Source: Chlorobaculum parvum NCIB 8327 (GTDB taxonomy: Bacteria; Bacteroidota; Chlorobiia; Chlorobiales; Chlorobiaceae). Taken from it: a stretch of 64,000 nt of DNA. Positions within the stretch are counted from its first letter, which is position 1. Each line of letters starts with the position of its first letter. Below are positions 35,747 to 40,850 of this stretch, one piece after another. Under the pieces are notes generated by a model that saw only the letters and a program-made list of their open reading frames with translations, ran no database searches and was not told where the DNA came from. Made by a program: the position numbers and the translations under genes. The stretch is taken from positions 2,092,001 to 2,156,000 of the forward strand of contig NC_011027.1 of the NCBI RefSeq assembly GCF_000020505.1, in the 5' to 3' direction.

Positions 35747-35985
35747 AAAGCAACGAAAGCCTGGCCGATCAGCCGACCGACCTCTTCATAGTGCGCCAAG
35801 AGCAGCCACGCATAACCGGCTGGAATATACCTGCTGAGAGCATGACCAGTTAACACGTTTTTTACGCACCCGCGCTTGCGCAACCGGTTAAAATATATTA
35901 GCTTTATTTCATTATCACGAAAGCCTGCCTTTGTGCGGAGAATTTCTCTTATGTGCTTTCTAACAACTCAAAACATATACGCATC

Positions 35986-36213
35986 ATGTCAAACGGAACT
36001 AACATCGATGTCGCGGGTGCAATCAACACCCTCACCGAAACCTTCGGCAAGCTTTTCCAGATGCAGGTTGATGTTGCCAACAACAGCCTCAAAGCTCTTG
36101 CTGAAGTCGCCGAGCCCCTCGGCAAGACCGCTACCGATCTGGTTGCCAGCTTCGCTAACGTTGCTACCCAGGTTCTGCAGAACGTCTCTTCGGCTGTAGC
36201 CCCGAAAAAATAA
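35986..36213 (+). CDS. csmB: Chlorosome envelope protein B
   Basis: 75-residue protein of the chlorosome envelope monolayer, beginning MSNGTNIDVAGAINTLTETF. The amphipathic helical sequence with few aromatic or charged residues fits CsmB. The longer frame from 35953 is not used because the mature-like N-terminus at 35986 matches CsmB. Upstream (35885-35900) is AT-rich with TATATT. It is the last gene before a strong terminator, so a short abundant transcript is expected. Confidence 0.93.
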   Translation: MSNGTNIDVAGAINTLTETFGKLFQMQVDVANNSLKALAEVAEPLGKTATDLVASFANVATQVLQNVSSAVAPKK

Positions 36214-36231: not shown

Positions 36232-36268
36232 AAGCACCTTATGCCTCCGCGTAAGGTGCTTTTTTTTT
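36232..36268 (+). terminator. Strong terminator of csmB
   Basis: Stem AAGCACCTTA / TAAGGTGCTT (10 bp) with a 10-nt loop and a nine-T tail, 19 bp after the csmB stop. Confidence 0.95.
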
Positions 36269-36296: not shown

Positions 36297-37304
36297 ATGA
36301 ACGCCCTGGACTCCATCCGCCAACTCTATCCCGTCAGCGAGCGCGCAAGCCTCGGTATACGCCGTCTCAAAGGAGATGCCTCGACAAGGAGCTATTTTCG
36401 CGTGACAGCACCGCACGGCACGGCCATTGCTTGCATCGATCCGGCATTCATCAACGCCGCTCCTGACACCTACCCATTCCTCATCGTCCGCGAGCTGCTT
36501 GCAACGCATGGCGTACGGGTACCCGAGGTGTACGGAATGTCCGGCGGAACCGGCTCGCTATTGCTCGAAGATTGCGGTGACCTGATGCTTCAGGACGAGA
36601 TTCCGCAGCTCGATCGTGAGCAGCTCTCCGCACGCTACCGGCAGATCATCGACCTGCTCGTCAAGATCCAGTCGATCCGACCTGATGAAAAAGCACTGGA
36701 ATCAGCGATTCCCTTTTCGCTCAGTTTCGATCATGAGAAGTTGATGTTTGAATTCGACTTCTTTATCGAACACGCCCTGAAGGACTATTTTGCAGGAAGG
36801 CTCGGCGAATCTGCAATCGGACGGCTTCGCGAGGAATTTCTCGCCATCACGGATCTGCTGGTGCTGCCGGAGCATTTCGTGCTCAACCACCGTGACTTCC
36901 ATTGCCGCAACATCATGCTTTTCCGGAACGAGCCGGTGATCATCGACTTTCAGGATGCCCGTATGGGACTACCGCAATACGATGCGGTATCGCTTTTGCG
37001 CGACTCCTATGTGCGGCTGGATGCCAACCTCGTGGAAGAGTTGAAACGCTACCACTTCGAGCAGCTCCGCCAGCATGGCCTGACGACGATGAGCGAGGAG
37101 GAGTACCGGCGTTTGTTCGACCTGATGGCATTTCAACGCAACGTCAAGGCGGTCGGCACCTTCTGCTACCAAACCTCCGTGGTCGGCAACTCCTCGTTCG
37201 AGGCCGACATCGCACCGACGCTGGGCTACCTGCGCGACTACATCGAAGCACGCCCGGAGCTTGCAACCGCAGGCGAGCTGCTTGAACCACTCATTTCCCG
37301 CTGA
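36297..37304 (+). CDS. amgK: AmgK-like anomeric sugar kinase (aminoglycoside phosphotransferase family)
   Basis: 335 residues. The APH-fold motifs typical of AmgK are present: RRLKGDASTRSYFRV near residue 22, HRDFHCRNIM (catalytic loop, ~residue 198) and IDFQDARMGLPQYDAVSLLRD (~215). AmgK phosphorylates C1 of N-acetylmuramic acid (and GlcNAc) in cell-wall recycling. Only 2 bp separate it from the MurU-like gene, the expected next enzyme, and a NamZ-type muramidase follows. The neighbourhood makes the assignment much stronger than the fold alone. Confidence 0.82.
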   Translation: MNALDSIRQLYPVSERASLGIRRLKGDASTRSYFRVTAPHGTAIACIDPAFINAAPDTYPFLIVRELLATHGVRVPEVYGMSGGTGSLLLEDCGDLMLQDEIPQLDREQLSARYRQIIDLLVKIQSIRPDEKALESAIPFSLSFDHEKLMFEFDFFIEHALKDYFAGRLGESAIGRLREEFLAITDLLVLPEHFVLNHRDFHCRNIMLFRNEPVIIDFQDARMGLPQYDAVSLLRDSYVRLDANLVEELKRYHFEQLRQHGLTTMSEEEYRRLFDLMAFQRNVKAVGTFCYQTSVVGNSSFEADIAPTLGYLRDYIEARPELATAGELLEPLISR

Positions 37305-37306
37305 CC

Positions 37307-38239
37307 ATGAACGCCTTCGTCCTGGCCGCCGGATTCGGCACCCGCCTGCAGCCGCTGACCGATACCCTACCCAAGCCGCTCATTCCGGTGCTGAACGTGC
37401 CAAGCCTCTGCTACTCTCTGTTCCTGCTGAAAAGAGCTGGTATCAGCAAAGCGATCATCAACATTCACCACCATCAGGAGAGCATCCGCCGCTTTTTCGA
37501 CGAGCACGACTTCGGCGGTCTCGAAATTGTACTGTCCGAAGAGCCGACCATCCTCGGCACCGGTGGCGGCCTGAAGAAGTGCGAAGCGCTGCTCGGCGAT
37601 GAGGAGTTCCTGCTCATCAACAGCGATATTATTAGCGACATCGACCTGCGCTCGCTCATCGACACGCACCGGCGATCGGACACAGGTGGCACGCTGGCCC
37701 TGTATGAAACTCCGCTGGCAGCAGAGATCGGCCACATCGGCGTCAAAGATGGCCGTGTGCTCGATTTCCGCAACCGGCGTGGCACTGGGCTTGACTCTTC
37801 CTTCATCTACACCGGTACGGCGATATTGAGCCCTGCCATTTTCCAGCATCTGGAGAGCGGCTACTCAGGCATCGTCGAAACCGGATTTAATGGGCTCGTG
37901 GAAAACGAAGGTCTCGCCTTTTACGAGCACAAGGGGTTGTGGCAGGACATCGGTACGTTGCCGAACTTTTACCGCGCGAACCTTGACGATAATTTGCGTA
38001 TCCTTCAACTTGCGGCAGAAATGAAACAGCAGATCGGCTTTTTCCCCCATCGGATCTCGCCTGAAGCCTCGATCAGCCCGGATGCAACGGTCATCGATTC
38101 GGTGATCGGCGCGAACTGCTCCATCGCGAAGGGCGCGGTCGTGGAGCACTCGGTACTGCTGCCCGGCACGATAATCGGCCCGGATGAAGCTGTCAGAAAT
38201 TCAATTGCCGCACCACCGAACGTGCGCATTCCGCTCTGA
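37307..38239 (+). CDS. murU: MurU-like sugar-1-phosphate nucleotidyltransferase
   Basis: 310 residues. The nucleotidyltransferase core begins MNAFVLAAGFGTRLQPLTDTLPKPLIPV (signature LxxGxGTRLxPLTxxxPKPL), with GTGGGLKKC and the metal-binding LLINSDIISDID. After residue ~235 comes a short left-handed beta-helix-like tail with hexapeptide repeats (ISPEASISPDATVIDSVIGANCSI), which the 223-residue Pseudomonas MurU lacks. Likely uridylylates MurNAc 1-phosphate from AmgK; a GDP- or TDP-sugar pyrophosphorylase is the alternative. Confidence 0.78.
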   Translation: MNAFVLAAGFGTRLQPLTDTLPKPLIPVLNVPSLCYSLFLLKRAGISKAIINIHHHQESIRRFFDEHDFGGLEIVLSEEPTILGTGGGLKKCEALLGDEEFLLINSDIISDIDLRSLIDTHRRSDTGGTLALYETPLAAEIGHIGVKDGRVLDFRNRRGTGLDSSFIYTGTAILSPAIFQHLESGYSGIVETGFNGLVENEGLAFYEHKGLWQDIGTLPNFYRANLDDNLRILQLAAEMKQQIGFFPHRISPEASISPDATVIDSVIGANCSIAKGAVVEHSVLLPGTIIGPDEAVRNSIAAPPNVRIPL

Positions 38240-38260
38240 ACCTCTCATTTCACAAACGGC

Positions 38261-39427
38261 ATGGTCATCAACGGTCTCGACATCCTGCTCGGCAATCCCG
38301 ATCTGCTGGCTGGCAGAAGCATCGGCCTGATCGCCAACCAGACATCGGTATCGTCGAAACTCGACTATTCGTGGACGCTGCTGCGACGCGCCGGTGTCGA
38401 ACTCACCCGAATCTTTTCGCCCGAACACGGCCTGTTCGCCGTCGAGCAGGATCAGATCGCCGTAGATCGTGAACCCGAGACCGGCTGTGAAATCGTCAGC
38501 CTGTACGGCCACAACGAGCAGTCGCTCGCCCCGGCCCGCGAGCTGCTCGAAGGGCTCGACCTGGTGCTGTTCGACATTCAGGATGTCGGCTCGCGCTACT
38601 ACACCTACGTCAACACGCTGGCGCTCTTCATGGAGGCTGCGCAGGGGCTCGACATCGAAATCATGGTGCTCGACCGGCCGAACCCACTCGGCGGCGAGCT
38701 GATCGAAGGCCCATTGCTCGACCCGGCGTTCCACTCGTTCGTCGGGGTAATGCCGGTGCCGGTGCGCCACGGCCTGACCGCCGGAGAGATCGCCCACTTC
38801 TACCGCGACTACAAAAAGCTCGACCTCAACCTGAGCGTGCTTGCGATGCAGGGCTGGTCGCGCCGGATGCTCTTTCCGGAAACCGGACTGCCGTGGGTGC
38901 CGCCGTCGCCGAACATGCCAACGTTCGAAGTCGCGGAGGTCTATCCCGGCATGTGCCTGTTCGAGGGTCTCAATGTTTCGGAGGGGCGCGGCTCAACCAC
39001 ACCGTTCCTGCTGAGCGGCGCGCCATTCGTCGATCCGGAAGCGCTTGCCGCACGTCTCAGCTCGATGCCACTGGAGGGCGTTGTCTTCCGTCCAACCTGG
39101 TTCAGACCGACCTTCCACAAGTATGCCGGTGGAGTCGTCGGCGGCATCTACCTGCACGTGACCGACCGCGAGCGATTCCGCCCTTTCGCAACCGGAGTAG
39201 CCATGACCTGCGCGCTTCGCGAGCTGTACGGCGACCGCCTCTCGTTTCTGGACGGTGTGTATGAGTTCAGGGATGACATCCCCGCATTTGACCTACTTGC
39301 CGGAAGCAGTGAAATCCGTTCGATGATTCTCGACGGAAAACCCGCCGAAACCATCATCAGCTCCTGGCAGCAGGACGAAGCCTCGTTTGCCGCCATCAAA
39401 CCCAACTTCCATCTGTACGACTCGTAA
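38261..39427 (+). CDS. namZ: DUF1343 exo-beta-N-acetylmuramidase (NamZ family)
   Basis: 388 residues with family signatures GLIANQTSV (~24), IFSPEHGLFA (~50), LFDIQDVGSRYYTY (~105), DRPNPLGG (~140), YPGMCLFEGLNVSEGRGST (~230) and the C-terminal FRPTWFRPTFHKY. NamZ releases terminal MurNAc from peptidoglycan fragments. There is no signal peptide or lipobox, unlike secreted family members, so action in the cytoplasm on imported disaccharide is inferred. It is 21 bp after murU and 13 bp before the transporter. Confidence 0.85.
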   Translation: MVINGLDILLGNPDLLAGRSIGLIANQTSVSSKLDYSWTLLRRAGVELTRIFSPEHGLFAVEQDQIAVDREPETGCEIVSLYGHNEQSLAPARELLEGLDLVLFDIQDVGSRYYTYVNTLALFMEAAQGLDIEIMVLDRPNPLGGELIEGPLLDPAFHSFVGVMPVPVRHGLTAGEIAHFYRDYKKLDLNLSVLAMQGWSRRMLFPETGLPWVPPSPNMPTFEVAEVYPGMCLFEGLNVSEGRGSTTPFLLSGAPFVDPEALAARLSSMPLEGVVFRPTWFRPTFHKYAGGVVGGIYLHVTDRERFRPFATGVAMTCALRELYGDRLSFLDGVYEFRDDIPAFDLLAGSSEIRSMILDGKPAETIISSWQQDEASFAAIKPNFHLYDS

Positions 39428-39440
39428 CCCGCAGATCTCG

Positions 39441-40850
39441 ATGCAACCGATCGATTACGCTATCATCATCAGCTTCCTCGCGGCCAGCACGCTTTTCGGC
39501 CTCTGGCAGGGTCGCAGCAACAAGCAGACCAGCGACTACTTTCTCGGCGGCCACAAGCTGCCATGGTTCGCCGTCATGCTCTCCGTGGTGGCTACCGAAA
39601 CCTCGGTACTCACCTTTGTGAGTGTTCCGGGGCTGGCCTACCGGGGCGACTGGACCTTCCTGCAACTCTCGTTTGGCTACATCGTTGGCCGGATTCTGGT
39701 CAGCTTCATTCTGCTGCCAGCCTATTTCAAACACGGCGTCACCTCGATTTACGAAGTCATCGGCATGAGATTCGGCCCCGGAATCCAGAAAACCGCGTCA
39801 GGCATTTTTTTGATTACCCGCATCCTCGGCGACGGCATCCGGTTCCTCGCCACCGGTGTGATCGTGCAGGTGGTCACCGGCTGGCCGCTCTGGCTGTGCG
39901 TGCTCATCATTGGCATGGTTACGCTGATCTACACCATTTCTGGAGGACTCAGAACCGTCGTCTGGCTTGACAGCTTTCAGTTCGGGCTCTACCTTGCCGG
40001 TGGGTTTATCTCCATCGGTTACGTCCTCATGCACATTGGCATGCCTCTGCCGGAGATTTTCAGTTCGCTGTATGAGGCCGGAAAGCTGCGGGTCATCGAC
40101 ACCGATCCCCACCTTTTCACCCACCCGCTCTCCTTTGTGAGCGCCTTTGTCGGTGGGACACTCTTATCGCTCTCCTCGCACGGTGTCGATTACCTGATGG
40201 TGCAGCGGATTCTGGGGTGCAAGGGGCTCGGTTCGGCGCGAAAGGCGATGATCGGCAGCGGCATCTTCGTGCTGTTTCAGTTCGCGCTCTTCCTGCTCGC
40301 CGGATCGCTGATTTACCTCTTCATGCACGGAGCGCCGGCGACCAAAGACCGCGAATTCACTTCGTTCATCGTCAACGTACTTCCGGCAGGCCTGAAGGGC
40401 GTGCTGCTGGCCGGCATCTTGTCGGCAGCGATGTCGACCCTCTCCTCCTCGATCAATGCGCTCGCCGCCTCAACCGTGACCGACCTGCTGAAAGGGAACG
40501 CTTCGCTCACCGCATCCCGCTTCATCAGCATCGGCTGGGCCGCAGTGCTGATCGGCATCGCGCTCGTATTCAACGAAAACGACAAATCGATTGTGATGCT
40601 GGGTCTTGAAATCGCCTCGTTCACCTACGGCGGACTGCTCGGCCTGTTTCTCCTTTCGCGCAGCAGTCGGGAGTTCCACTCTACCAGTCTCATCGCCGGA
40701 TTGCTGGCAAGCACGGGCGTGGTGTTTCTGCTGAAATTCCTCGGGCTGGCATGGACCTGGTACATAGCCGTCTCGGTAATCGTGAACCTGCTGGTAACCT
40801 TGCTCATCGAGGCTTTACAGTCGAAAAAGAGCAATACGAAGTTGTCCTGA
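39441..40850 (+). CDS. Sodium:solute symporter (SSS family)
   Basis: 469 residues from MQPIDYAIIISFLAA with about 12-13 hydrophobic segments. The family core LPWFAVMLSVVATETSVLTF (~residues 45-64) and GILSAAMSTLSSSINALA (~330) match SSS transporters of the NIS/SGLT type. Four-gene operon position behind namZ suggests a sugar substrate, perhaps MurNAc or a muropeptide-derived disaccharide; that is inference from context. Confidence 0.85.
   Translation: MQPIDYAIIISFLAASTLFGLWQGRSNKQTSDYFLGGHKLPWFAVMLSVVATETSVLTFVSVPGLAYRGDWTFLQLSFGYIVGRILVSFILLPAYFKHGVTSIYEVIGMRFGPGIQKTASGIFLITRILGDGIRFLATGVIVQVVTGWPLWLCVLIIGMVTLIYTISGGLRTVVWLDSFQFGLYLAGGFISIGYVLMHIGMPLPEIFSSLYEAGKLRVIDTDPHLFTHPLSFVSAFVGGTLLSLSSHGVDYLMVQRILGCKGLGSARKAMIGSGIFVLFQFALFLLAGSLIYLFMHGAPATKDREFTSFIVNVLPAGLKGVLLAGILSAAMSTLSSSINALAASTVTDLLKGNASLTASRFISIGWAAVLIGIALVFNENDKSIVMLGLEIASFTYGGLLGLFLLSRSSREFHSTSLIAGLLASTGVVFLLKFLGLAWTWYIAVSVIVNLLVTLLIEALQSKKSNTKLS

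Follow-up and report, generated by a model that had tools for sequence, protein, structure and literature searches.

The four genes at positions 36297–40850 of the window (the whole stretch of 64,000 nucleotides of Chlorobaculum parvum NCIB 8327 DNA that was analyzed) form a coherent and well-conserved operon, new in its composition, that probably salvages MurNAc and takes the place of the AnmK/MurQ route in Chlorobiaceae. This reading is drawn from the conservation of the operon, the absence of MurQ and AnmK and of any AmpG above cut-off, a firmly assigned NamZ, the genomic neighbors of the transporter in other phyla together with one gene fusion, and carboxylate-site residues resembling those of the sialic acid transporter SiaT. 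From the gene content we infer a sequence of steps in which the symporter (S) would import MurNAc or a saccharide of the MurNAc-GlcNAc type with Na+, a cytosolic NamZ (Z) would cut off the non-reducing MurNAc, the kinase (K) would phosphorylate MurNAc (perhaps GlcNAc too) at C1, and the nucleotidyltransferase (N) would transfer UMP to yield UDP-MurNAc, rejoining wall synthesis beyond MurA/MurB. Either the wall of the cell itself or neighbors could supply the imported fragments.

The window covers bases 2,092,001–2,156,000 of the genome, a single contig of 2,289,249 bp from a member of the Chlorobiaceae. All four genes lie on the plus strand in the order K-N-Z-S with intergenic gaps of 2, 21 and 13 bp, a layout given in the preliminary description and confirmed here by the open reading frames and their Pfam domains. 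K (36297–37304, 335 aa; PF01636, 112 bits) encodes an AmgK-like sugar-1-kinase of the APH fold, N (37307–38239, 310 aa; PF00483, 84 bits, plus hexapeptide repeats) a MurU-like sugar-1-phosphate nucleotidyltransferase, Z (38261–39427, 388 aa; PF07075, 252 bits, and PF20732, 167 bits) a NamZ-family exo-beta-N-acetylmuramidase, and S (39441–40850, 469 aa; PF00474, 99 bits) a sodium:solute symporter of the SSS (SLC5) family whose start at 39441 is backed by a conserved MQP(I/L)D N-terminus. A strong terminator-like hairpin (36232–36261, plus strand; 13 pairs followed by a T run) is located directly upstream of K and had been overlooked in the preliminary description. An 86-aa protein encoded further upstream (35953–36213) is conserved in the Chlorobiaceae loci examined and has no Pfam match; it was considered as a fifth member of the operon and rejected, since the hairpin sets it apart from K.

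Conservation was followed in 61 genomes of the class, 54 from Chlorobiaceae and 7 from two sister families. K was found in 53 of the 54 Chlorobiaceae genomes, all 53 of which also harbor S; in 51 genomes the two genes share a contig at operon distance, in the remaining 2 they are separated by contig ends, and in these operons NamZ is located between K/N and S. Such recurrence argues that the operon is not a product of chance. The sole exception (G013) has neither K, S nor the operonic NamZ, and a true loss cannot be claimed because its contig ends beside the operon site (the neighboring gene lies ~325 bp from the contig start). A Chlorobium chlorochromatii MAG (L085:1-3117) has retained Z and S, but upstream of them a ParE-like ORF is found and neither K nor N.

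As the preliminary description had anticipated, MurQ was above cut-off in none of the 54 Chlorobiaceae genomes, and AnmK was likewise found in 0/54. The sister families differ from each other in MurQ (5/5 genomes of one, 0/2 of the other), all 7 of their genomes harbor AnmK, and 98 of 148 sampled Bacteroidota genomes have MurQ above cut-off. AmpG exceeded its cut-off in 0/61 genomes of the class, with a model that may miss divergent forms, and MurA did so in 60/61. Two GH3 genes are present per Chlorobiaceae genome examined and could supply NagZ-type activity. With MurQ and AnmK absent, no AmpG above cut-off and MurA present, the operon is, as far as gene content can tell, the only recognizable MurNAc-salvage route of Chlorobiaceae beside de novo synthesis. 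Salvage, if any, thus has to use the K-N-Z-S operon or something unrecognized, and would complement de novo synthesis, not substitute for it.

Z is the one gene of the operon whose family can be assigned firmly from its sequence: both NamZ Pfam domains are above their curated cut-offs and cover the full length, as they do in the NamZ exo-muramidases of Bacillus subtilis and Tannerella forsythia, from which Z differs in having no signal peptide and in sharing an operon with K, N and S. The known product of NamZ is MurNAc, and export by a signal peptide is a usual, though not strictly defining, trait of the characterized secreted NamZ proteins. Z begins with MVINGLDILL, and neither Z nor any operonic ortholog carries a signal peptide (judged by eye from the sequences, without a predictor); the operonic orthologs begin directly at the domain with M-x-x-x-GL(D/E), which leaves no room for one. 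A hydrophobic N-terminus or signal peptide is present in most sister-family NamZ proteins and in the second NamZ that these genomes encode. In the tree, this second NamZ clusters with the copies from the sister families (100/100) whereas the operonic NamZ stands apart. Since Z is without a signal peptide and the second NamZ has one, Z is predicted to be cytosolic. The role of MurNAc releaser that was given to it in the preliminary description therefore agrees with its NamZ domains but not with a secreted muramidase that simply feeds the importer. A cytosolic Z would also depend on the import of a saccharide whose non-reducing MurNAc is free, and the need for this hypothetical substrate counts against the salvage reading. 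A variant of that reading, somewhat short of an even chance and able to hold together with it, has S importing free MurNAc that the second, signal-peptide NamZ would release in the periplasm, while the cytosolic NamZ would act on another substrate or be a minor helper. The Marinimicrobia relatives of S adjoin, and in one case are fused to, a NamZ with a signal peptide or transmembrane segment, so that free MurNAc would be the natural substrate there, and Chlorobiaceae have kept the second NamZ; however, the variant assigns no evident task to the cytosolic NamZ that is conserved within the operon.

The kinase and the nucleotidyltransferase are more divergent. K has the APH fold (PF01636 above cut-off) with intact catalytic residues, H198/R199/D200 and N205 of the HRDxxxxN motif as well as D217 being invariant in 12 orthologs. 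Its only NCBIfam matches are two AmgK models, whose equivalog cut-offs it fails by far (121 bits against 550 and 61 bits against 500). N fails the equivalog cut-off for MurU (131.4 bits against 250), although its catalytic motifs are invariant in orthologs; it is 32% identical to Pseudomonas putida MurU (PDB 4y7t) over 220 columns, and for the catalytic domain alone this MurU is the best solved relative by a narrow margin. The C-terminus of N forms a left-handed beta-helix of ~60 aa (hexapeptide repeats at residues 250–302) and so departs from the minimal MurU layout, a nucleotidyltransferase without a C-terminal beta-helix; the structure prediction for N has a pLDDT of 43. Because both proteins score far below the equivalog cut-offs, they are called AmgK-like and MurU-like, and their identity rests on context: K, not a certified AmgK, is predicted to phosphorylate MurNAc at C1, and N, not a certified MurU, to form UDP-MurNAc from MurNAc-1-P and UTP. 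Salvage of MurNAc, as first proposed for the operon, stays the best reading with MurQ and AnmK absent, and is weakened by these scores (121/550 and 131/250 bits); the word "complete" applies to the set of import, cleavage, kinase and uridylyltransferase and in no wider sense.

The low scores of K and N speak against salvage, as does the fact that N matches mannose-1-P guanylyltransferase equally well (134.6 bits, cut-off 440). The latter would suit a pair that makes a different activated sugar, such as a GDP- or UDP-sugar destined for surface polysaccharide, with NamZ and S sharing the operon only through envelope metabolism. Such kinases and nucleotidyltransferases are common in sugar activation, and the beta-helix extension of N agrees with this. 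It is nevertheless unlikely, given that AmgK models are all that K matches in NCBIfam, that MurU is the closest solved relative of the N catalytic domain, if narrowly, and that, in a family without AnmK and MurQ, the K/N pair has remained together with NamZ and S. In Chloroherpeton-type genomes (L058:16306-17778 and L059:6628-8088) an AmgK-like kinase fused to a RapZ C-terminal domain adjoins a MurU-like transferase. A direct descent of K and N from this pair was considered and rejected, the pair being a distant relative only (~24–31% identity) whose kinase carries the RapZ C-terminal domain.

Membership of S in the SSS family is clear from its SSF domain (99 bits, cut-off 22.8), with a score against TIGR00813 just under the cut-off (167 against 184 bits). 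S is 61–72% identical to the S proteins in named Chlorobiaceae records, which supports the placement of the genome in this family. Its structure model (pLDDT 83.8) matches NIS, SiaT and SMCT1 about equally (structural Z 40–42), and the proteins of solved structure closest to it are SiaT and the symporters for iodide, monocarboxylates and multivitamins. SiaT (PDB 5nv9, 5nva) shares the SSS fold with S (Z 41.6 for 5nva) at ~27% identity and has different neighboring genes. In SiaT, Ser60 and Thr63 bind the sialic-acid carboxylate (PMC5931594); their counterparts Ser55 and Thr58 are kept in all aligned members of the S subfamily, most of which also carry the motifs ETS..T, TR....R and SHG.D. Unlike SiaT, S has a glycine (Gly130) in place of Arg135, flanked in TM3 by two additional conserved arginines, Arg127 and Arg134. 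These residues fit a carboxylated sugar such as MurNAc without proving it.

The genomic neighborhood of S outside Chlorobiaceae was surveyed by searching genome contigs with an alignment of S proteins, from which 80 loci were kept (65 outside Chlorobiaceae) and neighbor genes were counted within a flank of up to 7 kb. NamZ, AnmK or MurQ lies near S in 25 of these 65 loci, in five phyla, compared with ~1 locus expected by chance (for three genes in single copy and 15 kb out of 4 Mb; a rough estimate that ignores kinship and has no control subfamily). The neighbor is AnmK in Actinomycetota, NamZ in Gemmatimonadota and Marinimicrobia, MurQ in Actinomycetota and a Rhodanobacteraceae MAG, and NamZ plus MurQ in Singulisphaera, with examples of the AnmK and NamZ neighbors confirmed by Pfam. 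In a Marinimicrobia MAG (L096:3299-5881) an S-type symporter and NamZ share one 860-aa frame with a hydrophobic segment between them, which may instead reflect a lost stop codon or an assembly error. This linkage and the single fusion, read from gene order, point to a MurNAc-type substrate; S is predicted to import MurNAc or a MurNAc-containing saccharide and appears to be a member of an uncharacterized importer family across many phyla. Salvage is opposed by the 40 of the 65 loci with no MurNAc gene within the examined flank, by the glycine at the SiaT Arg135 position and by the C. chlorochromatii MAG locus, which lacks K and N upstream of Z and S. That S is a mere neighbor moving an unrelated carboxylated solute, as the functional diversity of the SSS family and its nearest solved relatives could suggest, is quite improbable when members of this one subfamily recur, across several phyla, beside MurNAc enzymes of three kinds and are once found in a fusion. 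Two further arrangements were noted: a NamZ of Singulisphaera that is fused at its N-terminus to a beta-lactamase-family domain, with MurQ and the gene of a BadF-type kinase coming after it (L160:8495-10846), and, in other Bacteroidota (L232, L235, L239), SSS proteins 25–29% identical to S beside MurQ, NamZ and GH3 genes.

In the S tree, the Chlorobiaceae proteins group with those of Marinimicrobia (100/100) and not with the sister-family Chlorobia, which group with Ignavibacteriota. Forcing all Chlorobia S proteins together cost 202 log-likelihood units (AU p ~1e-62), a post hoc test made after the first tree had been seen and hence with an only indicative p. The placement makes it likely that Chlorobiaceae gained S by horizontal transfer, and a Marinimicrobia-like donor, with the direction this implies, is the suggested source. 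One record named Chlorobiaceae (L121, BC.017) has an S that groups with Ignavibacteriota and is probably mislabelled. A broader proposal can be put forward tentatively: S would found a widespread, uncharacterized subfamily of Na+-coupled importers of peptidoglycan amino sugars (Chlorobiota, Marinimicrobia, Ignavibacteriota, Gemmatimonadota, Actinomycetota, Planctomycetota and some Pseudomonadota), and Chlorobiaceae would have taken S from a Marinimicrobia-like source, dropped AnmK/MurQ and moved a NamZ to the cytosol, so that a disaccharide containing MurNAc would now be recycled directly into UDP-MurNAc.

Two known systems resemble the operon in part. The MurU pathway of Pseudomonas and Caulobacter (AnmK-MupP-AmgK-MurU) also has the kinase and uridylyltransferase genes side by side and reaches UDP-MurNAc past MurA/MurB; in Caulobacter, where the pathway is genetically verified, the functional AmgK and MurU are 30% and 37% identical to those of P. 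aeruginosa (PMC13046382). Chlorobiaceae differ in having no AnmK, no AmpG above cut-off, divergent K and N (the latter with its beta-helix), and predicted SSS import and NamZ release instead. The salvage system of T. forsythia (MurT, MurK, MurQ, AmgK, MurU, NamZ1/NamZ2) likewise combines NamZ and AmgK/MurU with a transporter described as a member of the sodium symporter superfamily (PMC5790795, PMC7670621), but T. forsythia has MurQ and no MurA/MurB (PMC7670621, PMC10465942), while in Chlorobiaceae MurA is present and MurQ absent. Its transporter Tf_MurT imports MurNAc and is placed in the sodium symporter superfamily in PMC5790795 (citing Ruscitto 2016), while PMC7670621 speaks of a novel Bacteroidetes family. 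A sodium-linked importer of MurNAc is therefore not a new idea in general, and the earlier statement that the substrate of the symporter is undescribed has to be narrowed to the S subfamily, which itself seems undescribed. A 2021 review of prokaryotic SSS proteins makes no mention of muramic acid, MurNAc or peptidoglycan (PMC7918813), and the literature search found no paper on such an operon in green sulfur bacteria. What is new here is the NamZ without a signal peptide, the linkage of the S subfamily to MurNAc genes and the grouping of S with Marinimicrobia.

If the salvage reading is true, it would tell by which route green sulfur bacteria salvage their cell wall, a subject on which the literature searched had nothing, and would give a testable substrate to an SSS subfamily found in many phyla. 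A NamZ working in the cytosol would put that enzyme to a new use, and one MurNAc route would be seen to replace another within a single class.
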